This document shows positions 1-25,479 of a DNA stretch of 25,740 nucleotides, piece after piece. The translations under genes and the position numbers were made by a program. The notes beneath the pieces are model-generated. The model was not told the DNA's origin and made no database searches. It saw only the letters and a program-made list of their open reading frames with translations. Position 1 is the stretch's first letter. The number at the start of each line of letters is the position of its first letter. Origin of the DNA: Acidobacteriota bacterium (GTDB lineage Bacteria > Acidobacteriota > Terriglobia > Terriglobales > Acidobacteriaceae); NCBI GenBank assembly GCA_021810735.1, contig JAJZIF010000007.1:1-25740 (forward strand). The letters run 5' to 3'.

Positions 1-1696
1 GGGGGGACGGCGCGATGGCGTAGACAACTTCGCCATAGAACTGGCCGAGGTTGTCTGGAATGAGATCGCCGGAGGAGACGAGGTATTTGGGGTTGTGGGT
101 GGAGAGGTCAGGGCTGATGACGCTCCAGCTTTGGCCCGCGTTGGTGGTCTTGAAGATGACCTGGCAGCCGTAGTAGACAGCGTTATGGTTGAAGGGGTCG
201 ATGGCGAGCGGCGCGGTCCAATGACAACGGTATTTAACCTGGTTGGGCGCGGCGTCGAGGGTGTGCAACCAGGGGCTGACGGAGCGGGCAGTCTGTGTGG
301 CGGCGTCCCAGCGGGTGACCTCGTTGCCGTAGCAGGTAGCCCAGACGATATTGGGATTGGCGGGGTCGGGCAGAGCGAAGCCGGATTCGCAGCCGCCCAT
401 ACCGCGGTTGTGGCCAGCGTTGGGATCTTCGTCATTGAGCGGGATGCTAGGGAAACGCATGGTGGTGGCATCCTGCATGTCTGTGTAGACCTCGTAAGGG
501 ATCTGGTCATCGACGGCGACGCGGTACATCTGGCCGATGGGCAGAGTGACGTAATGGAAGCCGTGTCCGCCGGTGGTGGTGATGTCGATGCCTTCGTCAA
601 AAGTGATGGCGAAGTGTCTGGAGTTCCTGGGATCCCACCAGATGTCGTGATTGTCGCCGCCCCAAGGTGTGGCCTTGAAGGTGTGGCCGCCATCGCGCGA
701 GATGGAGAGGCTGCTATTGGCGACGAGGATTTCGTCTTCGTCCGTGGGTGAGACAGCGATGGTGCCGTAATAGGGTGCGCGGCCGATGAGGGTACGGTCG
801 TAGCTGGTGCGGTACCAGTTGTTGCCGCCGTCATCGGAGCGCCAGAAGGAGCCCTGTCCGCGGGTCTCAATGAGGGCATAGACGCGGTTGGAGTCAGTGG
901 GGGCGACGGCTACGCTGACTTTGCCGAGCGGGGAGTGGGGCAGTCCGTGGCCGGTGATGCGATGCCAGGTGGCACCGCTGTCGTGTGAGACGTAGATGCC
1001 GCTGCCGGGGCCACCGCTGAACTCGCCCCAAGTGTGGATGACGACCTGCCATGTTCCGGCGAAGAGGGTGCGCGGATTCCGGGGATCGAAGGTGAGGCTG
1101 GAGCAGCCGGTGTTCTCGTCGACAAAGAGGACACGGGTCCAGGTTTTGCCGCCGTCAGTAGAGCGGAAAACGCCGCGCTGCTGCTGCGGGCCGGTAAGAC
1201 GACCTTCCGCACAGACGTAAACGTCGTTGGCATTGCGCGGGTTAATGAGAATCTTTGCAATGCGGCCGGTTTTGGCCAGGCCCATGTGCTGCCAGGTCTT
1301 GCCAGCGTCAGTGGATTTATAGACACCGTTGCCGGGAACGCTCATGTCGCGAATGGGATAAGGGTCGCCGGTGCCGACCCAAACGATGTTGGGGTCGGAG
1401 TGCGCGACGGCGATGGAGCCAATGGCAGCGGCGGATTCGTGATCAAAGATGGGGCGCCAGTGGTTGCCGCCATCGGTGGATTTGAAGACGCCACCGGAGG
1501 CTGCTCCGGCATAGTAGATGCTGGAGTTGCCGGGGATTCCAGCGAAGGCAGAGACACGATTGCCGATGCGAGGCCCTATGAAGCGAAAGTGGAAGCCTGT
1601 GGTCTCTTGTGCGCGTGTTTGCTGGGAGAGTGCCGGAATGGAGGCGAGGAAGAGCGTCAGAGTGCAGGCGGCAAGGGCAGTAAGGGACTTTTTCAT
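1..1696 (-). CDS. Secreted BNR/Asp-box repeat protein (VPS10/sialidase-like fold), N-terminal part
   Basis: The gene runs off the left edge; about 565 codons are visible with no stop. It starts at ATG 1696 (MKKSLTALAACTLTLFLAS...), which gives a classic signal peptide with likely cleavage near ALSQQ (residue about 25), so the product is exported. The body is built of Asp-box (BNR) repeats of the form S-x-D-x-G-x-x-W: KSTDGGNHW near residue 72, KSTDAGKTW near 127, RSTDGGKTW near 178, then VSHDSGATW, RSDDGGNNW and KTTNAGQSW. These repeats form seven-bladed beta-propellers in sialidases, GH74 enzymes and VPS10/sortilin-like proteins. The opening FIGPRIGNRVSA followed by SGGVFKSTDGG is typical of roughly 1000-residue secreted proteins often labelled 'glycosyl hydrolase, BNR repeat', whose substrate is unknown. 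No catalytic assignment is possible here. It is the next gene downstream of the hydroxyproline operon on the same strand, separated by a 185-bp gap with a hairpin and its own possible promoter. Confidence 0.85.
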   Translation of the reverse strand, partial: MKKSLTALAACTLTLFLASIPALSQQTRAQETTGFHFRFIGPRIGNRVSAFAGIPGNSSIYYAGAASGGVFKSTDGGNHWRPIFDHESAAAIGSIAVAHSDPNIVWVGTGDPYPIRDMSVPGNGVYKSTDAGKTWQHMGLAKTGRIAKILINPRNANDVYVCAEGRLTGPQQQRGVFRSTDGGKTWTRVLFVDENTGCSSLTFDPRNPRTLFAGTWQVVIHTWGEFSGGPGSGIYVSHDSGATWHRITGHGLPHSPLGKVSVAVAPTDSNRVYALIETRGQGSFWRSDDGGNNWYRTSYDRTLIGRAPYYGTIAVSPTDEDEILVANSSLSISRDGGHTFKATPWGGDNHDIWWDPRNSRHFAITFDEGIDITTTGGHGFHYVTLPIGQMYRVAVDDQIPYEVYTDMQDATTMRFPSIPLNDEDPNAGHNRGMGGCESGFALPDPANPNIVWATCYGNEVTRWDAATQTARSVSPWLHTLDAAPNQVKYRCHWTAPLAIDPFNHNAVYYGCQVIFKTTNAGQSWSVISPDLSTHNPKYLVSSGDLIPDNLGQFYGEVVYAIAPSP

Positions 1697-1740: not shown

Positions 1741-1752
1741 ATTGTACACCAA
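1741..1752. promoter_or_regulatory. Weak match to the hydroxyproline-locus operator upstream of the BNR-protein gene
   Basis: The sequence ATTGTACACCAA matches 9 of 12 positions of the palindrome ATTGTAYACAAT found upstream of the hydroxyproline operon and the S9 peptidase (10 if Y is allowed to be C). It lies 45 bp upstream of the BNR-protein start codon, overlapping a TACAAT box on the minus strand that could be a -10 element. The left half-site is perfect and the right half is degraded, so this may be chance. Confidence 0.25.
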
Positions 1753-1839
1753 ATTACATCCAATCTTCAGCAATGAAATGAAGGAATGGCGGGATTCTGG
1801 GGTGCATGGGCGACGATGGCGCCGGGAAGAGGCCGCGTC

Positions 1840-1881: not shown

Positions 1882-3474
1882 TCAGGACGAGACGGCGTCG
1901 CGTGTGAAGGAGCCGTCGACGAGGCGCCAGATGCCAAGGGGATTGGCATCTTTGAGTTCTTCAGGAAGGGCGGCTTGTGGAAAGTCCTGATAGCAGACCG
2001 GGCGCGCGAAGCGGAATATGGCCTGGCTACCGACGGAAGTGAAGCGGCTATCTGAGGTTGCGGGGTAGGGCCCGCCGTGGACCATGGCATGGCAGACTTC
2101 GACGCCGGTGGGAAAGCCGTTGAAGATGATGCGTCCGGCTTTTTGCTGGAGCGAGTCGACAAGATCGGCGAAGGCGGCGAGATCGGCCTCAGTGCCGTGA
2201 AGAGATGCCGTGAGCTGGCCCTCAAGTGCGTGAGCGAGGGCAAGAAGCTGAGCGCGGTCGGCGTAGCGCACCAGAAGTGTGGTGGGGCCGAAGAGTTCGT
2301 GTGCGAGCTCGGGATGCTCGAGGAGGGCTTCGCCGGTGGTTTGCAGGAGAGCGGGAACGGCACGATAGCCGGACTCGTCTGTGATGGGAGCTTCGGCGAG
2401 GATCTGGATGCGGGAGTGCGTTTTGCGCTGGGTAAGGCCGGCGCGGAAGTTGCCGCAGATGCCTTCCGTGAGCATGATGGCGCTGGCGCCCTGACGGGTG
2501 CGGATCTGTAACTCCTGCGCGAATGCATCGCCGTCAGAGTTGGCCGGGAGGAAAACGAGGCCGGGTTTGGTGCAGAACTGTCCGACGCCGAGTGTGAAGG
2601 AATCGAAGAGGCCGGCGGCGATGGCTGCTCCGCGTGAGGCAAGAGCCTGGGGCAGCACGACAAGTGGATTTGTGCTGCTCATTTCAGTGAAGCAGGGGAT
2701 GGGGTCGGGCCGTGCGGCGGCGAGATCCATGAGCGCGCGGCCGGCGCGGAGGGATCCGGTGAAGCCGACAGCTTTGACGGCGGGATGCTGTACGAGGGCG
2801 GCGGCGACTTGCGTGCCGGCATCAAAAAGCAACGCGAAGACGCCGGGCGGCAGGCCGCAGCTGACTGCCGAGCGAACGATGGCGTGGCCGACGAGTTCGC
2901 TGGCGCCGGGATGAGCGGGATGGGCCTTGACGATGACGGGGTTGCCAGCGGCGAGCGCGGAGGCGGTGTCTCCGCCAGCGACAGAGAAAGCGAGTGGGAA
3001 GTTGCTGGCGCCGAAGACGACGACCGGGCCGAGGGGGCGCAGCATGGACCGGATGTCAGAGCGCGGAAGCGGCTTGCGCTCCGGCAGCGCGGGGTCGATG
3101 CGGGCCTGCACCCAGGAGCCTTCTTCGACCATTTGTGCAAAGAGGCGGAGCTGGTTGGCGGTGCGGGCGAGCTCGCCCTGAAGGCGCTTGATGGGCAGGC
3201 CGGATTCCAGATGCGCGCGCGCGACCAGTTCTTCGGAAACGCCTTCCAGGCTGGATGCGATGGTGCGCAGGAAGTGCCCTTTTTGCGCGCCGGGCAGCTT
3301 GCCGTATGTGACGAAAGCCTCGGCGGCGAGATTTGCGGCCTGTCTGACGTCGTCCAGCGCGGCGGAGTGAAAGAGCGGCGTGAGGCGCTCGCCGGTGGCC
3401 GGATTGACGGCCGAGAATGTCTCGCCTGAACCCGGTTGCGGGGCCGAGCCGATGATGGAGAGTCCTTGTAGCAT
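1882..3474 (-). CDS. Alpha-ketoglutarate semialdehyde (2,5-dioxovalerate) dehydrogenase
   Basis: This aldehyde dehydrogenase superfamily enzyme of about 530 residues is the expected NAD(P)+-dependent last step of hydroxyproline breakdown, oxidising 2-oxoglutarate semialdehyde to 2-oxoglutarate. Numbered from the upstream ATG at 3480, the sequence shows VVFGASNFPLAFS (155-167, with the oxyanion Asn160), the cofactor lysine in VIVKAHPAHPG (Lys185), the Rossmann GFTGS (239-243), the general-base Glu266 in FTEMSSTNP, and the nucleophile Cys303 in GQFCTKPG. EMSSTNP and GQFCTKPG are characteristic of the KGSADH branch rather than betaine or phenylacetaldehyde dehydrogenases. Two in-frame ATGs exist, at 3480 and 3474. 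The AGAGGA ribosome site leaves only about 1-2 nt before the first but about 8 nt before the second, so 3474 is preferred. It is the last gene of the operon, about 25 bp after the deaminase gene. Confidence 0.9.
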   Translation of the reverse strand: MLQGLSIIGSAPQPGSGETFSAVNPATGERLTPLFHSAALDDVRQAANLAAEAFVTYGKLPGAQKGHFLRTIASSLEGVSEELVARAHLESGLPIKRLQGELARTANQLRLFAQMVEEGSWVQARIDPALPERKPLPRSDIRSMLRPLGPVVVFGASNFPLAFSVAGGDTASALAAGNPVIVKAHPAHPGASELVGHAIVRSAVSCGLPPGVFALLFDAGTQVAAALVQHPAVKAVGFTGSLRAGRALMDLAAARPDPIPCFTEMSSTNPLVVLPQALASRGAAIAAGLFDSFTLGVGQFCTKPGLVFLPANSDGDAFAQELQIRTRQGASAIMLTEGICGNFRAGLTQRKTHSRIQILAEAPITDESGYRAVPALLQTTGEALLEHPELAHELFGPTTLLVRYADRAQLLALAHALEGQLTASLHGTEADLAAFADLVDSLQQKAGRIIFNGFPTGVEVCHAMVHGGPYPATSDSRFTSVGSQAIFRFARPVCYQDFPQAALPEELKDANPLGIWRLVDGSFTRDAVSS

Positions 3475-3500
3475 GGGCATTTCCTCTTTAGGATGCGGCG

Positions 3501-4397
3501 TCAGGCCTTTCGGGAGGGCCGGTTTGCGAGAGCGTGCTGCACGATGGCGCGGGCCTCTTCGAGTTCGGTGCCTGCGAGTTCGAGACGAGGGCCACGTACA
3601 CGGGCGCTGCCCATGCCGACTTCTTCCTGCACAAATTTGATGAGCTGGATGAATTTTGGCACGGTGTCCATGCGCAGGAGCGGCAGGAACCAGCGGTAAA
3701 GGGCAAAGGCCGCGGTCTTGTCGCCGTGCGAGGCGAGGTTGAAGAGCTCGACGGATTCAGCGGGGAATGCATTGACGAGGCCCGCAACCCAACCCACGGC
3801 GCCGGCATAGATGCCTTCGACGATGGCGTCATCGACGCCGACGAAGATGGAGAGCGTGTCCGTCAGGGCGCGAATGGCGGTGATGCGGCGAACGTCGGTG
3901 CTGGATTCCTTGACGGCGTGAAGGTTCGCGTGTTCGGCGGCGAGTTCGGCGATGTGTCCGGGCAGAAAATCGGTGCCGTAGGAGACAGGATTGTTGTAAA
4001 GCATGCAGGAAAGCGGCGTGGCCTGGAATACCTCGCTGAGATAGGTTTTCATCTCGCGCCAGTCGCCTTTGTAGACATAAGGCGGCAGGACCATGAGCCC
4101 GCTGCAGCCCGCGTCGTGGGCTGCTTTGGCGAGGCTGACGGATTCGTGGGTGGAGAGTGACGAGATTGCGGCGACCACGGGAACACGGCTGCCGACGGTC
4201 TGCACCATGTTGCGGAGAATGGCGAGTTTTTCTTCTGTAGTCAGGGTCGCGGCTTCGCCAAGCGAGCCGAGCATGATAAGGCCGCTACATCCACTGTCGA
4301 CCATCCAGTTGGCGTGTCTGCTCATGAACTCGTGGTCCACGCGCATATGGTTATCGAAGCAGGTGGTCATGGCGGGCATGACGCCTTTCCATTGCAT
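3501..4397 (-). CDS. DapA-family lyase, probable 1-pyrroline-4-hydroxy-2-carboxylate deaminase
   Basis: The 298-residue product belongs to the dihydrodipicolinate synthase / N-acetylneuraminate lyase TIM-barrel family. It carries the carboxylate-binding loop GSLGEAA (44-50, equivalent to GTTGE in DapA), the catalytic tyrosine Tyr134 in LYNNPVSYG, and the Schiff-base lysine Lys163 in HAVKESSTD. The family also includes KDG aldolases and true DapA. The neighbours (epimerase, D-hydroxyproline dehydrogenase, KGSA dehydrogenase) point to the deaminating dehydratase that converts 1-pyrroline-4-hydroxy-2-carboxylate to 2-oxoglutarate semialdehyde plus ammonia (LhpC/HypD type). The start is firm: AAGGAGA lies 7 nt before ATG 4397. 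It sits 28 bp after the oxidoreductase gene and about 25 bp before the dehydrogenase gene, so co-transcription is likely. Confidence 0.85.
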   Translation of the reverse strand: MQWKGVMPAMTTCFDNHMRVDHEFMSRHANWMVDSGCSGLIMLGSLGEAATLTTEEKLAILRNMVQTVGSRVPVVAAISSLSTHESVSLAKAAHDAGCSGLMVLPPYVYKGDWREMKTYLSEVFQATPLSCMLYNNPVSYGTDFLPGHIAELAAEHANLHAVKESSTDVRRITAIRALTDTLSIFVGVDDAIVEGIYAGAVGWVAGLVNAFPAESVELFNLASHGDKTAAFALYRWFLPLLRMDTVPKFIQLIKFVQEEVGMGSARVRGPRLELAGTELEEARAIVQHALANRPSRKA

Positions 4398-4425: not shown

Positions 4426-5703
4426 TCAATGTTGCGCCGTGGGCTTCTCCGCCTCGGCAAGCGTATCAAAGCGCACCGGCAATATCGGCGGGCGGATGGA
4501 CTCACCGGGCCAGCCATAAAGAAATTCAGTTGCAGCGCCGCATACCCGGCCCTGGCAGGGGCCCATCCCGCAGCGAGTGTGGAGCTTGGCGCTGCGCCAG
4601 GAATCGTGTTGTTGCAGGAGTTCGTGAGCGACATCTTCGCAGCGGCAGACAGTTGTCTGGGGCGCAGGCAGGCGGCGCAATTCGGGGCGCGGAGCGAATG
4701 CGCGCTCCATCGCGGCAGCAAAACCCAGGGCCTTGTTGCGTTTGGCGAAAAGCTTCCGAGCTGGGGAGTTCTGGCCGGTGCTGGCATATCCGGCGATGGA
4801 GCCTTCGATGAGTGACTTGTCGAGTCCGCCTATGCCGGTGATTTCCCCGGCACAGAATACGTTGGGTACGGAGGCCTGCTGCAAGGAGTCGACCGCGACA
4901 AAACCGTTGTGGAGCGAGCAGCCGAGAAGCGCGGGCAACTCCGTGTTGGGAACGAGATGGAAGCCGCAGGCGAGGAAGTCACAGTCGAGCGTGAGACGGC
5001 GCGCTCCGTTGGTGAGCGTGACGGATTCGACCTGGGACTTGCCGTGAGCCGTGACGGGCCACCAGCCGATGCGATAAGGCACAGCGGCAAGCTGCGTGCG
5101 ATATTGCACGGCCTGAGAGATTTTCGAAGGGTATGCAACAATCGATGTTGCAAAATGAGCAAGCTGGCGGGGCGGCGCCTGTTCGCAGACGGCGACGACC
5201 TGGGCCCCATGGCTCTTGAGGAAAGCGGCGACGGCAAGTAGAAGCGGACCACTGCCGGCGAGGACGATACGCTTGCCAGCGACGGGCAGGCCGGACTTGA
5301 CCATCGCCTGCAAGCCGCCCGCACCGGTGACATTGCGCAGAGTCCAACCGGGGAATGGCAGGAAACGCTCGCGGGCACCGGTGGCGAGGATGAGTTTGTT
5401 GTAGCGCAGGATGTGGAGGCCGTCGGGAGCCTCAGCGTGGAGGGTGTTGAAAGCTGGAGCGTCGAAGACGCGGAGGCCGTGGAGGCGCGTGGCCTGGGTT
5501 TGTTGAAGCCGGTTGTGCCATGGTCCAGACGGATGGGACTGCCGAGCGGGGAAGCTGTTGCGCCAGATCTGGCCGCCGAGGGCGGGATTTTCATCGACGA
5601 TGGCGACGCGGGCATGAGGGGCGGCAGCACAGGCGGCCGCGATGCCGGCAGGTCCGCCGCCGATGACGAGGACATCGTAAGTGTACTCGTTACGGTTACG
5701 CAT
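4426..5703 (-). CDS. NAD(P)/FAD-dependent oxidoreductase with BFD-type Fe-S domain; D-hydroxyproline dehydrogenase subunit
   Basis: The 425-residue flavoprotein resembles HcnB, OoxA and LhpE. Residues 10-36 hold the N-terminal FAD Rossmann motif (VLVIGGGPAGIAAACAAA, with an acidic IVDE strand end). A second dinucleotide fold lies near 145-172 (RIVLAGSGPLLLAVAAF). The C-terminal BFD-like segment has Cys353-x-Cys355 and Cys378-x4-Cys383 in a CRCED...RCGMGPCQGR context, which normally binds a 2Fe-2S cluster. In hydroxyproline, cyanide-synthase and octopine-oxidase systems this protein pairs with a DadA-like subunit and a small ferredoxin-like subunit. All three genes are adjacent here. Its start overlaps the 2Fe-2S gene by 8 nt, and GGAGG lies 9 nt upstream of ATG 5703. 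The likely role is electron transfer within the membrane-linked D-hydroxyproline dehydrogenase complex. Confidence 0.88.
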   Translation of the reverse strand: MRNRNEYTYDVLVIGGGPAGIAAACAAAPHARVAIVDENPALGGQIWRNSFPARQSHPSGPWHNRLQQTQATRLHGLRVFDAPAFNTLHAEAPDGLHILRYNKLILATGARERFLPFPGWTLRNVTGAGGLQAMVKSGLPVAGKRIVLAGSGPLLLAVAAFLKSHGAQVVAVCEQAPPRQLAHFATSIVAYPSKISQAVQYRTQLAAVPYRIGWWPVTAHGKSQVESVTLTNGARRLTLDCDFLACGFHLVPNTELPALLGCSLHNGFVAVDSLQQASVPNVFCAGEITGIGGLDKSLIEGSIAGYASTGQNSPARKLFAKRNKALGFAAAMERAFAPRPELRRLPAPQTTVCRCEDVAHELLQQHDSWRSAKLHTRCGMGPCQGRVCGAATEFLYGWPGESIRPPILPVRFDTLAEAEKPTAQH

Positions 5704-5941
5704 GTGTGCTCACCTCCATTCCGGGCACACAGAGGGTCTGGCATGCGAGCCGGTTGGAAATGCGGTCGATGGTGACTCGGCACTCGTAACAGATGCCCAT
5801 GGCACAGAGCGGTCCGCGCGGCTGGCCGGTCACGGAGGTGCGGCATGGTTCGTTCAGAAGAGTGAGCGCGACGGCGACAGTGACGCCGGAGGGAACTTGC
5901 ACCGGAGCGCCGTTGACCGTGATCGTGATGGCGTCAGGCAT
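5696..5941 (-). CDS. Small 2Fe-2S ferredoxin-like subunit of D-hydroxyproline dehydrogenase
   Basis: This 81-residue beta-grasp ferredoxin is of the HcnA/OoxX type. The cluster ligands are Cys46, Cys51, Cys54 and Cys67 in GPLCAMGICYEC...RLAC; an extra Cys71 is present. The N-terminus, with ITITVNGAPVQVPSG, is the usual beta-hairpin. The gene overlaps both neighbours by 8 nt (5934-5941 with the FAD subunit and 5696-5703 with the NAD(P)/FAD subunit). Such overlaps imply translational coupling and fixed stoichiometry of a three-subunit enzyme. GGAG lies 7 nt before the ATG. The family is known from hydrogen cyanide synthase and octopine/nopaline oxidase; here the context assigns it to D-hydroxyproline oxidation. 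Confidence 0.9.
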   Translation of the reverse strand: MPDAITITVNGAPVQVPSGVTVAVALTLLNEPCRTSVTGQPRGPLCAMGICYECRVTIDRISNRLACQTLCVPGMEVSTHA

Positions 5942-7067
5942 GCGCAGTCTCCGTTGTGGGATGAAATGCGCGGGCGGGCAAGTAGGGTTCGACGGGGATT
6001 TCGGACCCCGAGCCGGTGAGGATGTGACGGATCAATTTGCCGGTGGCAAGCGCGGTGGTGATGCCGAGGCCCTCGTGTCCAGTAGCGAGAAAGAGCGTGG
6101 GATCGGCGGGATGTGGTCCGATGAGGGGCAGCTTGTCCGGCGTGGCGGCGCGGAAGCCGGTCCAGGTGCGCAGGACGGAGAGTTTGTCGATGCCAGGCAT
6201 ATAGCGCCGAGTCTGCTGCATCATGCGCTGGAGGATTTGGTGGTCGACAGATTTGTCGTGTGCGTTGTATTGCCGCGATGAGCCAATGAGGACCTGTCCG
6301 GTTTTGCGCGGTTGCACGTTGAAGGCGACTGAATCTGCCGTGCCGGAGCCTGCGCTGCGGACGTAGCCAAGTTCGACGAGTTGATGACGGACGAAGCCGG
6401 GTGCGCGGTCCGTGATGACGAGATGACCTTTGCGCGGGTGGACCGGCAGCCCCGGGGCGAGGGATGGGGCTGCGGCCCCGAGCGCGTTGATGATGCGCGG
6501 TGAGGAGAGTATGTCTCCGTTGGCAAGACAAGCTTTGCCTTCACCGGCCTGCAAGGCAGCCTGGCGGATGAGGGAAGCACCGGAAGAAAGAGCTTGTTGC
6601 AACAAATAATCCGCGGCAACGGGGGGATAGAGGACTGCGTCAGAGGAGACGAGGAGTCCGCCTGCCAGGCCGGGGCGGAGATGCGGTTCTTCATGCAGCA
6701 GGGCATGCGAATCCAGGACGCGAACTGGCAGGCCGCGCGTCACGTAAATGGATTGCTTGCGCGCGACCTCCTGCATTTCGACCTCGTCAGCCGCGACCCA
6801 GATGGTTCCGGGCGTTTCATATTCGGCTGCAGGTGGAAGCTGCGGTGCGAGGACATGCCAGAGCTGCTGGGAGTAATGGGTGAACGCGAGCTGCGCGGGC
6901 GAATCATCCATGACGACGATGTGACCCATGCCGGCGGCGGTTGCTCCTCCGCCGACGACGCCGGGCTCGACCACTGTGACGGACATGCCGGCGTGGGCCA
7001 GTTCCATGGCGCAGGCTGCTCCGACGATACCGGCACCGAGAACAATTGCGTCGCAATTGGAGCTCAT
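5934..7067 (-). CDS. DadA-like FAD-dependent D-hydroxyproline dehydrogenase, catalytic subunit
   Basis: The 377-residue DAO/DadA superfamily flavoprotein opens with the FAD-binding fold AIVLGAGIVGAACAMELAHAGMSVTVVEP (GxGxxG at residues 11-16, terminal acidic residue near 34). Near the C-terminus LRTWTGFRAATPDKLPLIGPHP and ATGHEGLGITTALATGKLI are typical of amine-oxidising members such as DadA, HcnC and LhpB. In the pathway it oxidises cis-4-hydroxy-D-proline to 1-pyrroline-4-hydroxy-2-carboxylate and passes electrons to the 2Fe-2S and NAD(P)/FAD subunits encoded directly after it. Its ATG overlaps the stop codon of the epimerase gene in an ATGA junction (7064-7067), and its own end overlaps the ferredoxin gene by 8 nt. 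The substrate assignment rests on the neighbours; D-proline is a plausible second substrate. Confidence 0.88.
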   Translation of the reverse strand: MSSNCDAIVLGAGIVGAACAMELAHAGMSVTVVEPGVVGGGATAAGMGHIVVMDDSPAQLAFTHYSQQLWHVLAPQLPPAAEYETPGTIWVAADEVEMQEVARKQSIYVTRGLPVRVLDSHALLHEEPHLRPGLAGGLLVSSDAVLYPPVAADYLLQQALSSGASLIRQAALQAGEGKACLANGDILSSPRIINALGAAAPSLAPGLPVHPRKGHLVITDRAPGFVRHQLVELGYVRSAGSGTADSVAFNVQPRKTGQVLIGSSRQYNAHDKSVDHQILQRMMQQTRRYMPGIDKLSVLRTWTGFRAATPDKLPLIGPHPADPTLFLATGHEGLGITTALATGKLIRHILTGSGSEIPVEPYLPARAFHPTTETAHA

Positions 7068-8011
7068 GTGCGGATTCCGGCGACGAATGGATCGGTGGAG
7101 TCGAGGATGAGTGTGGTTTCGGCCGTGATGTATGCGTTGCCGGTGATGCTGGGATAGACGCCGTCGTCACGGACCTCGATGCAGCCTTGAAAGATGCTGC
7201 CGAGAATGCCTTCCTGGCGCCAGAGCTCGCCGGGACTGAGTTTGCCGTCGGCGTAGAGGCATGCCATTTTGGCAGAGGTGCCGGTGCCGCAGGGTGACCG
7301 GTCATAGGCTTTGCCGGGGCAGAGTACAAAGTTGCGGCTGTCGGCCTGAGGGCTGACTGGTGGAGCGAAGATTTCGATGTGATCGATGATCTTGCCGTCG
7401 TCTCCGCAGATGCCCTGCGATTCAAGGGCCTGACGGATGGCCCAGGTGAATTCGGTGAGGCTCTCGACATGCTGGAGGTCGAGTTGCTGGTTGTGGTGGT
7501 CGACAAGATAGAACCAATTGCCGCCCCAGGCGATGTCACCAGTGACGATGCCGTATCCGGGAACCTCGATGGGAACGTGCTGTGCGGCGCGGTAGCTGCG
7601 GACATTTGTGACAGTGACCGCGCCGCTGGGGTGGAGGGTGGTTTTGACGGCGCCGACAGGGGTGTCGATCCAGTGCTCGCCTGGCTGAATTTTGCCGAGC
7701 CAGGCAAGGGTGGCGACGACGCCGATGGTTCCGTGGCCGCACATACCGAGATAGCCGACGTTGTTGAAGAAGATGACGCCGATGTCGCAGCGGGGATCCT
7801 GGGGCTCGCAGAGCATGCCGCCCACGATGACATCGGAGCCGCGCGGCTCATTGACGACGGCGGAGCGGAAGTCGTCGAACTGAGTACGGAGGCGGTCAAG
7901 CCTTTCGGCGAGAGATCCATCGCCCAATTCCGGAGCGCCAGCGATGACGAGCCGCGTGGGTTCGCCAGCGGTGTGCGAATCGATGGCCTGAATACGATGC
8001 AGAACGGACAT
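7064..8011 (-). CDS. lhpA: 4-hydroxyproline 2-epimerase (proline racemase family)
   Basis: The 315-residue enzyme interconverts trans-4-hydroxy-L-proline and cis-4-hydroxy-D-proline, the entry step of the pathway. Numbered from ATG 8011, both catalytic cysteines are present: Cys91 in GMCGHGTIGV and Cys241 in DRSPCGTGTSAKMA. This separates it from trans-3-hydroxy-L-proline dehydratases, in which one cysteine is replaced. The N-terminal IDSHTAGEPTR and the DRSPCGTG substrate loop are standard for the family. An in-frame TTG at 8017 would add two residues. The only purine-rich stretch, GGGG, is 12 nt from the ATG but 6 nt from the TTG, so the exact start is uncertain; ATG is used here. It is the first gene of the operon, and the promoter region with a GntR-type palindrome lies 33 bp upstream. 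Confidence 0.92.
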   Translation of the reverse strand: MSVLHRIQAIDSHTAGEPTRLVIAGAPELGDGSLAERLDRLRTQFDDFRSAVVNEPRGSDVIVGGMLCEPQDPRCDIGVIFFNNVGYLGMCGHGTIGVVATLAWLGKIQPGEHWIDTPVGAVKTTLHPSGAVTVTNVRSYRAAQHVPIEVPGYGIVTGDIAWGGNWFYLVDHHNQQLDLQHVESLTEFTWAIRQALESQGICGDDGKIIDHIEIFAPPVSPQADSRNFVLCPGKAYDRSPCGTGTSAKMACLYADGKLSPGELWRQEGILGSIFQGCIEVRDDGVYPSITGNAYITAETTLILDSTDPFVAGIRT

Positions 8012-8043
8012 TAGCAAGCTTGGCCCCGAATTATGTCTACCAC

Positions 8044-8055
8044 ATTGGATACATT
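8044..8055. promoter_or_regulatory. Putative GntR/FCD operator for the hydroxyproline operon
   Basis: ATTGGATACATT matches 10 of 12 positions of the palindrome ATTGTATACAAT, a form commonly bound by FCD-type GntR regulators. It lies 33 bp upstream of the epimerase ATG in the 182-bp divergent region shared with the regulator gene. The same motif occurs twice upstream of the S9 peptidase gene. Confidence 0.5.
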
Positions 8056-8193
8056 CTTGTCTTTAGATTATCAGTTCATCGTGGAACTGTTAAGACGGGG
8101 GCATGAGGTGGATGTTTCCGGTGCGGAGTCCGGACAGGAGCGAATATACTTCACAGCGGCAACCATAGTACATACACTTAGGTTGATAACAAT

Positions 8194-8937
8194 ATGGCGA
8201 ATGTGACTTCGAAAACGGGTCGTAAGCCGCATGCAAAGAAGGCGGCTGCTCAGCATGGGGCGGGGTTACAGACTGCCTTTCAGCAGGTTCGGGAGCTGAT
8301 TGTGCATGGGAAGCTTTCACCGGGCATGTGGATTGTGGAGGCTGATCTGGCGCAGCGGCTGGGGATGAGCCGGACTCCGGTGCGCGGAGCGCTGCAGTGG
8401 CTGCAGCGCGAAGGGTACGTGATTGAGCAGAAGAACGTGAGCAAATCACGGATGATTGTGGCGCCTTTGACGAAGGAAGATTCGTCGGAGCTGTACGCGA
8501 TTGTTGGTCATCTGGAGGGACTTGCCGGGAGGCGGACGGCGCAGTTGCCCAAGGAGAAGCGCATGGAGATTGTGCGCCAGCTCAGGAAGCTGAATACCGG
8601 GCTGAAGTCGATCAGCCGTGACCAGACAGGCAGGGCTGGAGATATTTTCGATCTGGACACGACGTTTCACTCGACGGTGGTGAAGGCCAGCGCGGGGCCA
8701 CGCCTGATGGCGCTATATAACGCCGTGAAGCCGCAGACGGAGCGGTATTGGCGGCTTTATGCCAGCTCGATCATCAACGATCTGCACAACAGCGTGACAG
8801 AACACGAGGAGATTATTGACGCGATCCAGGAAGGGGACCCGGATCGCGTGGAGGCGGCATTGCAGTTGAACTGGAGCAATGGCTCTCAGCGCCTGGGGAA
8901 GGTGATCGACCTGTTTGGAGAACGCGGCACCTGGTAG
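8194..8937 (+). CDS. GntR-family transcriptional regulator, FCD subfamily (probable hydroxyproline regulator)
   Basis: The 247-residue protein has a basic N-terminal tail (about 1-20), then a winged helix-turn-helix (about 25-85) with FQQVRELIVHGKLSPGMWI, the recognition helix LAQRLGMSRTPVRGAL, and the wing LQREGYVI. An all-helical FCD ligand-binding domain follows (about 95-235). The FCD metal-ligand pattern is partly kept: D-x3-H in DTTFHSTV and His in TEHEEI. The last expected histidine (MRxHL in the family) is replaced in QLNWSNG. Start ATG 8194 has only a poor ribosome site (TTAGGT). It is transcribed divergently from the hydroxyproline operon and followed by a strong terminator. The effector is inferred to be a hydroxyproline pathway intermediate. 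Confidence 0.9.
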   Translation: MANVTSKTGRKPHAKKAAAQHGAGLQTAFQQVRELIVHGKLSPGMWIVEADLAQRLGMSRTPVRGALQWLQREGYVIEQKNVSKSRMIVAPLTKEDSSELYAIVGHLEGLAGRRTAQLPKEKRMEIVRQLRKLNTGLKSISRDQTGRAGDIFDLDTTFHSTVVKASAGPRLMALYNAVKPQTERYWRLYASSIINDLHNSVTEHEEIIDAIQEGDPDRVEAALQLNWSNGSQRLGKVIDLFGERGTW

Positions 8938-8965
8938 ACGCTTTGTTTGAGGCAATGTACACGAG

Positions 8966-8994
8966 ATGCGGCTGAGTCAGCCGCATTTATTTTT
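8966..8994 (+). terminator. Rho-independent terminator after the GntR gene
   Basis: ATGCGGCTGA and TCAGCCGCAT form a 10-bp perfect inverted repeat (effective stem GCGGCTG/CAGCCGC with an AGT loop). TTATTTTT follows immediately on the plus strand. It lies about 30 bp after the regulator stop codon and separates it from the S9 peptidase transcription unit. Confidence 0.88.
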
Positions 8995-9036
8995 GGGCAT
9001 TTGCCGGAGAAATGAAGGCAATTTCATGATTCCGAC

Positions 9037-9092
9037 TTGACATCGCCCCAGGTTGGATCGTACACAATCATACGCTACAAATTGTATGCAAT
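9037..9092 (+). promoter_or_regulatory. Promoter and paired GntR-type operators of the S9 peptidase gene
   Basis: A perfect -35 hexamer TTGACA lies at 9037-9042, with a poor -10 candidate TACACA 18 bp on. Two palindromes follow: ATCGTACACAAT (9057-9068, 10 of 12 to ATTGTATACAAT) and ATTGTATGCAAT (9081-9092, 11 of 12), with centres 24 bp apart. The first overlaps the presumed -10, as expected for repression. The same palindrome stands upstream of the hydroxyproline operon. Confidence 0.5.
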
Positions 9093-9153
9093 CCACTGCC
9101 CGCTATACCGGTTGCGCGCGCAAAGTCCAGTATGCCCGAGTGAGGAGAAGCGA

Positions 9154-11475
9154 ATGCGGAAGCTATATCGATACCTGATGGTTTTTGTACTGCCAGCGGC
9201 AATTTTTCCGGTTGCAGGTTTCGGCCAGACACTGCGCGCCGAATATGAAAAGGCAGCGACGCTTGGGAAGCTGTACAGCAGCCTGACGGTGAATGTTCCG
9301 GGCAAGGCGGTCTGGATCGGAGACACGGACAGCTTCTGGTACCGCAAGAGCGTGAACGGCGGTTACGCATTTGTGCTGGTGAATGCAAGGGCCGAGACAC
9401 GCGGTCCGGCATTTGACCAGGCAAAACTGGCGATGGCTTACAACAAGGCGAGCGGCGAGACGGTGACGGCTCTGAAGCTACCGTTTGAGGAGTTCCGCTA
9501 TGGCAAAGATCAAAAAAGCATTCTGTTTGCCGCAGACCAGTCGCGCTGGGAATGTGACTTAGAAAAGTACGTATGCAAACGGACGGGGCCGGACGTGCAG
9601 TGGTGGCAGGAGCCGCAGTGGCTTTCGCCGAAGAACGATCCGTCAGATGTGGTGACCTCACCGAACGGGAAGTGGGAAGCGTTTATCCAGAACTTCAACG
9701 TCTATGTGAGGCAAAAGGGGAGTAAACACGCGGTTGCGCTGAGCACGGATGGGTCGCAGGGGAATTTTTACTATTTCCCATCGCTGAGGTGGTCGCCGAA
9801 TTCGGAGGACCTGGCGGCGTTTCGGATTCGACCGGGCTTTCACAGGCGGGTTTATTACGTGCAGGCGGCACCGCCGGACCAACTGCAGCCGAAGCTCTCG
9901 TCCATCGAATACGTGAAGCCAGGTGATGTGCTGGACTTGCAGCAGCCGGTGCTGTTTCATGTGGTGGAGCGGAAGGAAATTCCGATTGACAATGCGCTGT
10001 TTCCTAATCCGTTCAATCTGTCGAGGATGAAGTGGTGGAAGGACAGCCGCGGCTTCACGTTTGAGTACAACCAGCGCGGGCACCAAGTGTATCGCGTGAT
10101 TGAAGTGAACGCGACAACGGGCAAGGCGCGGGTCCTGATCAATGAAACGAGCAAGACGTTTATCGATTACGAGGGGTTGACGGGGAACCAGTATGACACT
10201 GGATGGACTTACCGTTATGACGTAAATGACGGCAAGGAAATTATCTGGATGTCAGAGGCGGATGGCTGGCCGCACCTGTACCTGTACAACGGGATGACAG
10301 GCGCACTGGAAAACAGGATCACCAGCGGGCCGTGGGTCGTACGCGATGTGAATTACGTCGATGTTGCGAAGCGGCAGATTTATTTCGAGGCCAGCGGAGT
10401 GAATCCGAACGTGGACCCGTACTTTGTGCACGAGTACCGAATCAACTTTGACGGGACGGGGATGACGCCTCTGACTCCGGAGCCGGGGAATCACCAGGTT
10501 GAGTTTTCGAAGGACGGGAAGTATTACGTCGATTCGTGGTCGACGGTGAGCGAGGCGCCGACGATGGTGCTGAAGCGGACAGCGGGCAACCAGGTGCTGA
10601 TGCACCTGGAGCATGGGGATATCAGTAAGTTAGTCGCGGCAGGGTGGAAGCCGCCGATGGTGTTTCACACGGCGGGCAGGGATGGGAAGACGCAGATATG
10701 GGGGCTGATCTACAAGCCGCTGAACTTTGATCCGCAGAAGAAGTATCCGGTGGTGGAGGATATTTATGCGGGGCCGCAGGGTTCATTTGTTCCGAAGTCG
10801 TTTACGACGCGCTTTGAGCCGCTGACCGCGCTGGGATTTGTGGTGGTGCAGATAGATGGGATGGGAACGAATAATCGCGGGAAGGCCTTCCAGGATGTGA
10901 TCTGGAAGAACCTGAAGGACAGCGGATTTCCGGATCGGATACTGTGGCACAAGGCGGCGGCGAAGAAGTTTCCGTGGTATGACATTTCGCACGGGGTGGG
11001 GATCTTTGGTGTTTCGGCAGGCGGGCAGAGCACGCTGAGCGCGCTGCTGTTTCATCCGGACTTCTACACGGTGGGGGTGGCGAACAGCGGATGCTACGAC
11101 AACCGGATGGACAAGGTCTGGTGGAACGAACTGTGGATGGGCTGGCCGGTGGGTCCGCAGTATGCGGCTTCGTCGGACGTGGCGAATGCATACCGGCTGA
11201 AGGGCAAGCTGCTGCTGTTTTTCGGCGGGATGGATCACAACGTGGATCCGTCGTCGACGCTGCAGGTGGTGAATGCGCTGATCACGGCAAACAAGAACTT
11301 CAGCCTGCTGGAGGTTCCAAATGGGGATCACGGCGTGGGGATCGCGCACGCCTACGTGCAGCGGAAGCTGGAGGACTTTTTTGTGAAGAATATGCTGCAC
11401 GAGCAGCCGCCGGACTGGAACCGGGATCCTGGAAAGTGGTTTAAGCCGGGGCAGGAGCCAGCGCCGCGGTATTAG
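9154..11475 (+). CDS. Secreted S9-family prolyl oligopeptidase / dipeptidyl peptidase IV-like protease
   Basis: The 773-residue exported serine peptidase starts at ATG 9154, chosen because AGGAG lies 6-7 nt upstream and because it begins a signal peptide ([22 protein letters not shown], cleavage near GFGQT). An upstream in-frame TTG would bury this signal. Residues about 60-500 are the DPP-IV N-terminal beta-propeller; the C-terminal alpha/beta-hydrolase holds Ser621 in FGVSAGGQS, Asp694 in [10 protein letters not shown] and His726 in NGDHGVG. The nucleophile elbow is GVSAGG rather than the usual GWSYGG. Enzymes of this family release dipeptides with proline, or hydroxyproline-like residues, at position 2. 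Linkage and shared operators with the hydroxyproline operon suggest that it feeds the pathway from collagen-like or extensin-like peptides. It ends just before a hairpin terminator at 11502. Confidence 0.92.
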
Positions 11476-24447: not shown

Positions 24448-25479
24448 TCATGCTACCGCCTTGCCGGCCATCTGCTCAGTCGCGAGAAAATCCTGTTTCC
24501 TCCGTTCTACCGCGAGCATGTAGGCCACCATTTTCCTGGCGACGGCCAAGGTGGCGCGATTGCGGTGCCCTCTTTGCAACTCTTTGTCTCGAACCAGGGC
24601 GAGGTCGTACGAGTATCTGGGCGCCAGTTTCGCTGCTTCAACGAGCACTTGCTGCAGGTGCTTGTTTCTTTGTTTCGAGATCGGCGTTCGTGTCACCTTG
24701 TCGGCGGAAGCTTTCTCCGAGCTACACAGTCCGCAGTAGCTGATCGCTTGCTTGATGGATCTAAAGCGAGAGTAGTCGCCGATCTCCAGAATCCACGTGA
24801 GAGCCGTGATCGGGCCAACACCAGGGATGGACCTCAGCCGGTTCAAGCGTTCTGAAAGCAATGGATCCTTTTCGAGAGAACTAATCAGAGCGTCATCCAG
24901 CCGCTGCGCCCGCATGATTTGTTCGTGGCCGAGCTTCAGCAGCGGGCGGATGCTCTCGCTGATATCCTCGTTTGCAGCAAGCAGCTCAGTGAAGTAGCCC
25001 GCCCTATGGAGCCGCTGCTTGTTATAGCTGACCCCGGTTTCCATCAGCAAGCCGGATACACGATTTTTGGTCTGCACCATTTGCTTGACCACCAAGTTGC
25101 GGTACCGCATCACCCGCCGTCGATCCCGAATCTCAGTTGGAGCCATGTAGCACTCCGGCAGGAAATCGCAACGAAGGCAATCAGCGATCTTGTTGGCATC
25201 GATCCGGTCATTCTTCTTCTTGGCAGCGGCGATTGCCCGTAGCATCAGTGGATGAGCAACCTTCACCGCTTCGGCACACGGGAGCAGGTGATCATAGATC
25301 CATCCGGTAAAGACGGTCGCTTCCATCGCAATCATCCGCGGTTGGGGTAGCGTCGTTATCCAGGCATCCAGCTCGCGCCGGGTCGATCCTATCTTGCCTT
25401 CCCGGTGCACATGACCAGCTGCATCCTTCACGCAGTAACTGATCGTTTTCTTGTGAACGTCAAGTCCGATGTAGTACAT
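24448..25479 (-). CDS. IS110-family transposase (DEDD/serine recombinase)
   Basis: The 343-residue transposase is full-length. The N-terminal RuvC-like DEDD domain shows Asp7 in YIGLDVHKK, Glu53 in AMEATV, and Asp91/Asp94 in KKNDRIDANKIAD. A coiled helical linker follows (about 120-210). The C-terminal Transposase_20 domain has the hairpin IPGVGPITALTWILEIGDYSRFRS (218-241) and then YCGLCSSEKASADK with Ser258 as the likely nucleophile, then ISKQRNKHLQQVLVEAAKLA. The usual QSG around the serine is ASAD here, an unusual variant. These recombinases use an element-encoded bridge RNA to choose target and donor. No frameshift or stop is seen, so the element may be active. There is no clear ribosome site; GGAGG upstream lies within a predicted stem. 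Confidence 0.95.
   Translation of the reverse strand: MYYIGLDVHKKTISYCVKDAAGHVHREGKIGSTRRELDAWITTLPQPRMIAMEATVFTGWIYDHLLPCAEAVKVAHPLMLRAIAAAKKKNDRIDANKIADCLRCDFLPECYMAPTEIRDRRRVMRYRNLVVKQMVQTKNRVSGLLMETGVSYNKQRLHRAGYFTELLAANEDISESIRPLLKLGHEQIMRAQRLDDALISSLEKDPLLSERLNRLRSIPGVGPITALTWILEIGDYSRFRSIKQAISYCGLCSSEKASADKVTRTPISKQRNKHLQQVLVEAAKLAPRYSYDLALVRDKELQRGHRNRATLAVARKMVAYMLAVERRKQDFLATEQMAGKAVA

Follow-up and report, generated by a model that had tools for sequence, protein, structure and literature searches.

We consider it likely that the GntR protein encoded at 8194-8937 is a HypR-like regulator of both hydroxyproline catabolism and secreted peptide breakdown, and this judgement applies to the following explanation as a whole. 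The operator, as predicted from the sequence of the window (the whole stretch of 25,740 nucleotides that was analysed, 25.7 kb), is a ATTGTATACAAT-type palindrome (GT-2nt-AC), often paired at a 12-bp pitch. A GntR dimer would bind these palindromes, often as two dimers side by side, and would sit on the promoters of hypE (8032-8055) and of a secreted S9 peptidase (9057-9092), and probably also on that of a BNR protein (1741-1764). By analogy with HypR and other FCD regulators, the stacked FCD dimers would repress these promoters until released by a ligand derived from hydroxyproline, and the export of peptide-degrading enzymes would then rise together with hydroxyproline breakdown. Repression and an inducer, both taken over from HypR, are the most likely form of this control. 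The features concerned are listed in Table 1.

Table 1 Genes, candidate operators and hairpin of the window that bear on the proposed regulon
Feature	Position	Strand	Remarks
BNR/sortilin-like protein	2..1696	-	Signal-peptide-like start by eye; PF15902 81.2, PF02012 39.4 bits; cut by window end
Third candidate operator, two copies at 12-bp pitch	1741..1764	minus	ATTGGATGTAAT + TTGGTGTACAAT; not listed in the preliminary description
Aldehyde dehydrogenase, likely alpha-ketoglutaric semialdehyde dehydrogenase	1882..3480	-	PF00171 162.8 bits
DHDPS-family protein, likely 1-pyrroline-4-hydroxy-2-carboxylate deaminase	3501..4397	-	PF00701 184.2 bits
SoxA-like FAD/NAD oxidoreductase, likely D-hydroxyproline dehydrogenase subunit	4426..5703	-	PF07992 94.8 bits; TIGR01372 66.2 bits, under cut-off
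DAO-family FAD oxidoreductase, likely D-hydroxyproline dehydrogenase subunit	5934..7067	-	PF01266 209.2 bits
hypE, predicted 4-hydroxyproline 2-epimerase, first gene of the operon	7064..8011	-	Pro_racemase 328.8 bits
Candidate tandem operator, 12-bp pitch	8032..8055	.	TATGTCTACCAC + ATTGGATACATT, upstream of the hydroxyproline operon
GntR/FCD regulator, proposed binding protein	8194..8937	+	247 aa; Pfam GntR 44.5, FCD 68.2 bits
Terminator-like hairpin 3' of gntR, between gntR and the peptidase unit	8964..8988	+	Hairpin scan
Candidate operator copy 1, S9 peptidase promoter	9057..9068	.	ATCGTACACAAT; score 12.1-12.3; over the expected -10
In-register spacer between the peptidase copies	9069..9080	.	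CATACGCTACAA; no convincing site itself
Candidate operator copy 2, S9 peptidase promoter	9081..9092	.	ATTGTATGCAAT; score 16.7, second best of the window
S9 peptidase (DPPIV_N + Peptidase_S9)	9154..11475	+	Signal-peptide-like N terminus by eye; GVSAGG serine motif

Judged by their domains, the minus-strand genes from 8011 to 1882 are predicted to form the known hydroxyproline route, and the order of the steps agrees with that in PMC6608401. The hypE product scored 427.7 bits against NF010577, slightly under the cut-off of 442. The gntR gene is divergent from this operon; a GntR/FCD regulator thus adjoins epimerase-pathway genes, as in a HypR-type hydroxyproline regulon, and the sequence of the predicted operator recurs at the hyp operon and at other putative members of the regulon. 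Both domains of the regulator, the wHTH (PF00392) and FCD (PF07729), scored over their gathering scores. When the protein was compared with NCBIfam, no model reached its cut-off, the best being TIGR03338 (81.2 of 271.5 bits). The recognition-helix motif SRTPxR was found in 40/40 GntR sequences, as were D155 and H159 of the ligand domain, while H204 and N226 were present in 39/39. Several VanR members possess a three-histidine metal site. The position of the third histidine ligand, chosen by eye without a structure, is N226 (Asn) in 39/39 sequences.

Among the 17 GntR relatives with names, 16 carried labels of Acidobacteria, Terriglobia or genera within these, and one that of Gemmatimonadetes; MAGs make up 16 of the 17. 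The relative in the Gemmatimonadetes-labelled record (L045) has 48% identity and may reflect transfer or a binning error. The scan of 7950-9200 yielded two terminator-like hairpins, and shuffled sequence 1.1 on average. At the other end of the window, a minus-strand ORF (24448-25479) has the look, by eye, of an IS110-type transposase.

The most likely start of the peptidase is the ATG at 9154. Only the broad families DPPIV_N and Peptidase_S9 were matched in Pfam, and the sole match in NCBIfam was Dpp5 (36.4 of 900 bits). The Ser-Asp-His catalytic residues are present when the protein is aligned to DPP chains (S621 in GVSAGG, then GGMDH and GDHG). In dipeptidyl peptidase IV (S9B), the specificity for Pro-dipeptides is fixed by a GWSYGG motif together with an N-terminal Glu pair. 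The peptidase has GVSAGG, not GWSYGG, and its sole EE in residues 1-400 is at 112, as read from the sequence without a structure. Given the broad families, the low Dpp5 score and the serine motif, the release of prolyl/hydroxyprolyl dipeptides put forward in the preliminary description is a proposal that these results do not establish.

When the whole window was searched with ATTGTAYACAAT allowing up to two mismatches, eight strand-matches were observed at five places (1741, 8044, 9057, 9081 and 20478). Shuffled windows gave a mean of 0.66 strand-matches, and 0 of 100 reached eight. The three palindromes from which the preliminary description had started were confirmed at 8044-8055, 9057-9068 and 9081-9092; the places at 1741 and 20478 were absent from its list. 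Its claim of an excess over chance in the gaps flanking gntR also held, as 2000 dinucleotide shuffles of 8018-8193 and 8938-9153 gave a mean of 0.066 places, with at least two places in four shuffles and three in none. A weight matrix was then trained on 13 hand-picked words from the gntR and hypE upstream regions of other genomes. With the window sites left out, it placed 8044-8055 (17.0) first and 9081-9092 (16.7) second in the whole 25.7-kb window and 9057-9068 only fifth (12.3), behind words at 4068 (within the DHDPS gene) and 18965 (within overlapping ORFs). The nearest genome compared (G001) has 96% of the window's sampled words in common. With at most one mismatch, four places were found in it, two at the peptidase and two within ORFs. 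A search of G001 with ATTGTATACAAT at up to two mismatches returned 28 places, and the reversed control 13; a lone two-mismatch match is therefore given little weight.

In the sister genome G105 (locus L048), where the GntR protein is 89% identical, the motif is kept at both promoters. Both words on the peptidase side and their 24-bp spacing are recognisable there amid less conserved flanks, with CGTRCACAAT conserved in copy 1 and AAATTGTAT in copy 2, which reads ATTGTATTTAAT. At the hypE site, ATGTCTAC..ATTGGATACA is conserved in L048, L050 and L051, ATGTCTAC lying upstream, and GTGTACAAT of the BNR-promoter candidate is conserved in L048. The sister S9 copy itself (637-2876 of L048) is broken over several frames, through either real decay or an assembly error. 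The preliminary description had proposed a motif scan of orthologous loci as a check, and the scan gave, besides the conservation at both units in L048, a motif upstream of gntR (up to two mismatches) in 20 of 40 loci and none in the other 20; this set includes the G001 copy of the window (L047) and two loci with <60 bp of upstream DNA.

Five of the loci (L033, L035 and L037-L039) encode a GntR relative of 50-54% identity, and ATTGTATACAAA stands upstream of the gene for it. Nearby is a gene resembling trans-3-hydroxyproline dehydratase (381.5 bits against a cut-off of 550 in the one member tested), as are, variously, SDR, DHDPS and APC genes. Large gntR clusters with APC permease, TonB-type receptor, DUF885, S9 and DUF5695-like genes were observed in L032, L054 and L066, the DUF5695-like label coming from a Pfam run on the L066 protein.

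The site at 8044-8055 is 33 bp from the hypE ATG (8009-8011). Together with its partner (8032-8055) it has the top tandem-12 score of the window, 24.9, against a maximum of 16.0 in 60 first-order Markov sequences; the training set of this matrix included the site, which was still first at 17.0 when the window sites were left out. The second tandem-12 score, 18.4, belongs to 1741-1764, 45 bp before the BNR/sortilin-like protein gene. The 24-bp spacing given earlier for the peptidase pair is correct and equals two 12-bp steps. The best weak match in the spacer is one base out of register (score 5.0 at 9070). As for the first copy, said to sit at the -10, a TTGACA at 9037-9042 sets it over that position, but a consensus scan calls no promoter, and the placement is plausible only.

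Pairing at 12 bp was also observed beyond the window. Among 63 noncoding high-scoring sites, which are distinct by sequence yet include near-identical relatives, 20 have a partner scoring at least 4 at 12 bp, and any other offset from 10 to 40 bp has at most two. The corresponding number for coding high-scoring sites was 3 of 27. Both members of the pair are sometimes strong (L050, L051). No enrichment of 24 bp as a general spacing was found among the 63 noncoding sites.

A total of 150 genomes were drawn, 24 with this GntR (GntR+) and 126 without (GntR-). Exact WTTGTATACAAW occurred at 14 places in the GntR+ genomes against one for the reversed pattern, and at 11 places in the GntR- genomes against 13 for the reversed control. 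It was present in 10/24 GntR+ and 11/126 GntR- genomes (Fisher p 2e-4, a statistic that ignores kinship). Because 12 of the 14 places in GntR+ and 7 of the 11 in GntR- genomes are noncoding, noncoding position alone separates the two sets little. The looser TTGKATACAAW gave 68 strand-matches in the 24 GntR+ genomes against only 28 for the reversed control, at 54 places, of which 32 are noncoding and 22 within ORFs according to the ORF caller; many of these sites are therefore attributed to chance. L132, which is among the 32, lies at the end of a contig, and its assignment is uncertain. In one GntR- genome (L234), a perfect motif precedes a different GntR-like gene (by eye), and the motif word is thus not peculiar to this regulator.

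The S9 ortholog (E up to 1e-150) was found in 16/24 GntR+ and 1/50 GntR- genomes (p 1.6e-9, again ignoring kinship), and a GH127/146 relative (E up to 1e-100) in 17/24 and 6/50, respectively; both searches covered 50 of the 126 GntR- genomes. The co-occurrence of GH127/146 is support and no proof. Among S9/GH127 loci in GntR- genomes, one of eight (L224) carries a high-scoring word (16.9).

Genes behind the noncoding TTGKATACAAW sites were named using Pfam on one or two members per kind, and the others by BLAST or by eye. The sites precede hypE/gntR (L159, L168, L169), S9 (L157, L161; G018 and G089 have S9 sites), DUF885 (L129, L155, L163), TonB-type receptors (L143, L146, L167) and GH127/146 (L121, L128, L160), as well as GH27 (L150), GH35 (L135), cyclophilin (L149) and APC permease (L146) genes; others, e.g. 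L125, L162 and L164, are without an evident link. In L157 and L161, from two genomes, a divergent S9 / GH28-like pair has one common motif site. The most telling site is in L151 (4629-7240), where the hydroxyproline route is a non-epimerase one and yet the motif is present. A perfect ATTGTATACAAT lies there directly before a radical-SAM activase, whose best model is the trans-4-hydroxy-L-proline dehydratase activase (368.6 bits, cut-off 425), and the next gene matched trans-4-hydroxy-L-proline dehydratase (HypD) with 907.4 bits (cut-off 1100), though it is cut by the contig end. A HypD activase was found in 1/24 GntR+ genomes.

The S9 promoters were scanned as a set. From 17 matches, two were dropped for a missing N terminus (L186, L188), and 5 of the remaining 15 promoters scored at least 12 (G001, the window's own copy, and G018, G089, G102 and G130), compared with 7 of 174 background promoters (p 0.0009). 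The comparison is conservative because the background contains some true motif genes (L135, L146, L147). In G103 and G118, S9 apparently lies further down an operon led by a gene with a word of at least 12; this count was made post hoc, and the first-gene start in G118 was judged from L032. A strong site is absent from the own promoter in 10/15 S9 orthologs, or in 8/15 if operon promoters count. In L187 (G130), ATTGTCTACAAT lies 170 bp upstream of S9, with a weaker partner exactly 12 bp further.

In the case of GH127/146, only 3 of 18 promoters reached 12 (p 0.055). Its membership of the regulon everywhere was not borne out, and we keep it as a proposal. S9 and GH127/146 matches are <70 bp apart on one strand in G099, G067 and G102, and the strong site before S9 in G102, being close to GH127/146, may therefore serve both. 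The L160 protein, the one GH127/146 relative checked in this respect, matched PF07944 with 381 bits, its best PDB match was 5opj, and its QECCC and WCC motifs, matched by eye, fit a Cys/Glu zinc site.

That one GntR/FCD regulator serves both units, as the preliminary description held, is well supported by comparative genomics, namely by L048, by the motif before S9 orthologs away from gntR (G018, G089, G102, G130) and by co-variation. Two explanations would detach the peptidase from it. The hypE site could be a true GntR operator and the peptidase-side matches merely AT-rich promoter sequence. This reading draws on the 8 of 15 S9 orthologs in which neither the own nor the operon promoter has a strong site, and on the overlap of copy 1 with the -10 position. 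We regard it as very unlikely, since chance AT-rich matches are ruled out by the gap shuffles, none of which reached three places, and by the conservation of both copies and their spacing in L048; the strong sites before S9 in the four genomes just named also speak against it. It is rather unlikely, too, that the motif is real but that one or more other FCD-family paralogs bind some of the sites, leaving the peptidase outside the hydroxyproline regulator. ATTGTATACAAT-type palindromes are indeed common to VanR-group regulators (ATGTATACAT for Atu1419, PMC7797058; ATTGTCAGACAAT for AlkR, PMC12042122), and the 11 places in GntR- genomes include the one before another GntR gene in L234. However, the number of sites and the presence of the S9 ortholog both follow this GntR, the peptidase adjoins gntR in the window, and the motif occurs upstream of gntR/hypE and before HypD.

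A further question is the direction of control. The regulator might activate, or repress hypE and activate the peptidase, an idea favoured by the suggestion that the divergent transporter gene SCO6295 may be activated by HypR (PMC6608401). We think this unlikely, as the position of copy 1 over the -10 and the sites near start codons fit repression, and HypR has been described as a repressor in two species (PMC6608401, PMC5343134).

In the glycoproteins of plant cell walls, hydroxyproline is a major imino acid. We tentatively raise the possibility that in Acidobacteriaceae the regulon is devoted to hydroxyproline-rich glycoproteins of plants (extensins and arabinogalactan proteins). A hydroxyproline-sensing GntR on 12-bp-stacked operators would induce the removal of sugars by GH127/146, GH27, GH35 and GH28 enzymes, for each of which the motif was seen in some relatives. 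It would also induce the trimming of peptides by S9 and DUF885, uptake through TonB and the catabolism of hydroxyproline, with the imino acid, not the sugar, as the signal for glycoprotein breakdown. The proposal is kept tentative because the closest solved relative of the GH127/146 enzyme, 5opj, is presumably BT0349, an arabinan/RG-I enzyme. Collagen was set aside as the obvious substrate on the weak ground that a collagenase-type gene was not noticed among the annotated motif-preceded genes. If the proposed regulon is right, an abundant, little-studied soil phylum would have a specific regulon of this kind, and the S9 clade, DUF885 and BNR/sortilin-like secreted proteins would be tied to hydroxyproline. 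The 12-bp stacked operator would offer a simple model for side-by-side FCD dimers.

The coupling of such a regulator to a peptidase, of which the preliminary description knew no account, is published for HypR (PMC5343134, PMC6608401). In Alteromonadales and Aeromonas, HypR regulons were predicted to include secreted collagenases, prolyl (di)peptidases and TonB receptors (PMC5343134), and in Streptomyces coelicolor a collagenase gene was shown to be under HypR (PMC6608401). The proteobacterial HypR resembles the present protein as a GntR/FCD regulator of hydroxyproline genes (PMC5343134), and HypR is among the FadR-subfamily regulators whose motifs have GT-2nt-AC, as the motif here (PMC4494728). 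The differences are the phylum and the genes, which here are S9, DUF885, BNR and glycosidase genes, not collagenases. The S. coelicolor HypR (SCO6294) is likewise a GntR/FCD repressor, of the epimerase pathway and a putative secreted collagenase (SCO5912), but its motif CTNTGC(A/C)ATGTCAC differs from the palindrome here and the peptidase is of another family (PMC6608401).

Atu1419 of Agrobacterium fabrum, from the VanR group, is also an FCD regulator, and its 10-bp palindrome overlaps -10 boxes; two palindromes occur in one intergenic region, as here (PMC7797058). However, those palindromes are 190 bp apart and looped by a tetramer, and they serve another pathway, whereas the spacing here is 12 or 24 bp (PMC7797058). 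The FadR, HutC and YtrA subfamilies often have weaker additional boxes 7-12 nt from the centre of the site, and the 12-bp pairing is therefore seen as a sharper case of a known tendency, although here a complete palindrome may be the partner, at exactly 12 bp, compared with the extra half-sites described (PMC4494728).

Some GH146/GH127 beta-L-arabinofuranosidases, with HypBA1 of Bifidobacterium and enzymes of Xanthomonas as examples, release arabinose from hydroxyproline and act on Araf-Hyp (PMC10850190). The motif-preceded enzyme in the relatives here matches that family and is a putative beta-L-arabinofuranosidase. Control of GH146/GH127 by a hydroxyproline regulator is unmentioned in the available part of that paper. 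GH127 and other glycosidases of Latescibacteria genomes were proposed to attack extensin and AGP, a proposal that, in the available text, names neither a regulator nor a hydroxyproline operon (PMC4454575). A 2025 survey reported hydroxyproline degradation as enriched in the SPL habitat group of Acidobacteria lineages, which we take to mean soil-preferring, and its available part names no regulator (PMC11778308). When titles and abstract starts of the open-licence literature were searched, no regulon of this sort was found in Acidobacteria or with GH127/146. The coupling itself is thus known, and what is apparently new here is the acidobacterial regulon, its set of enzymes and the architecture of its predicted operators.
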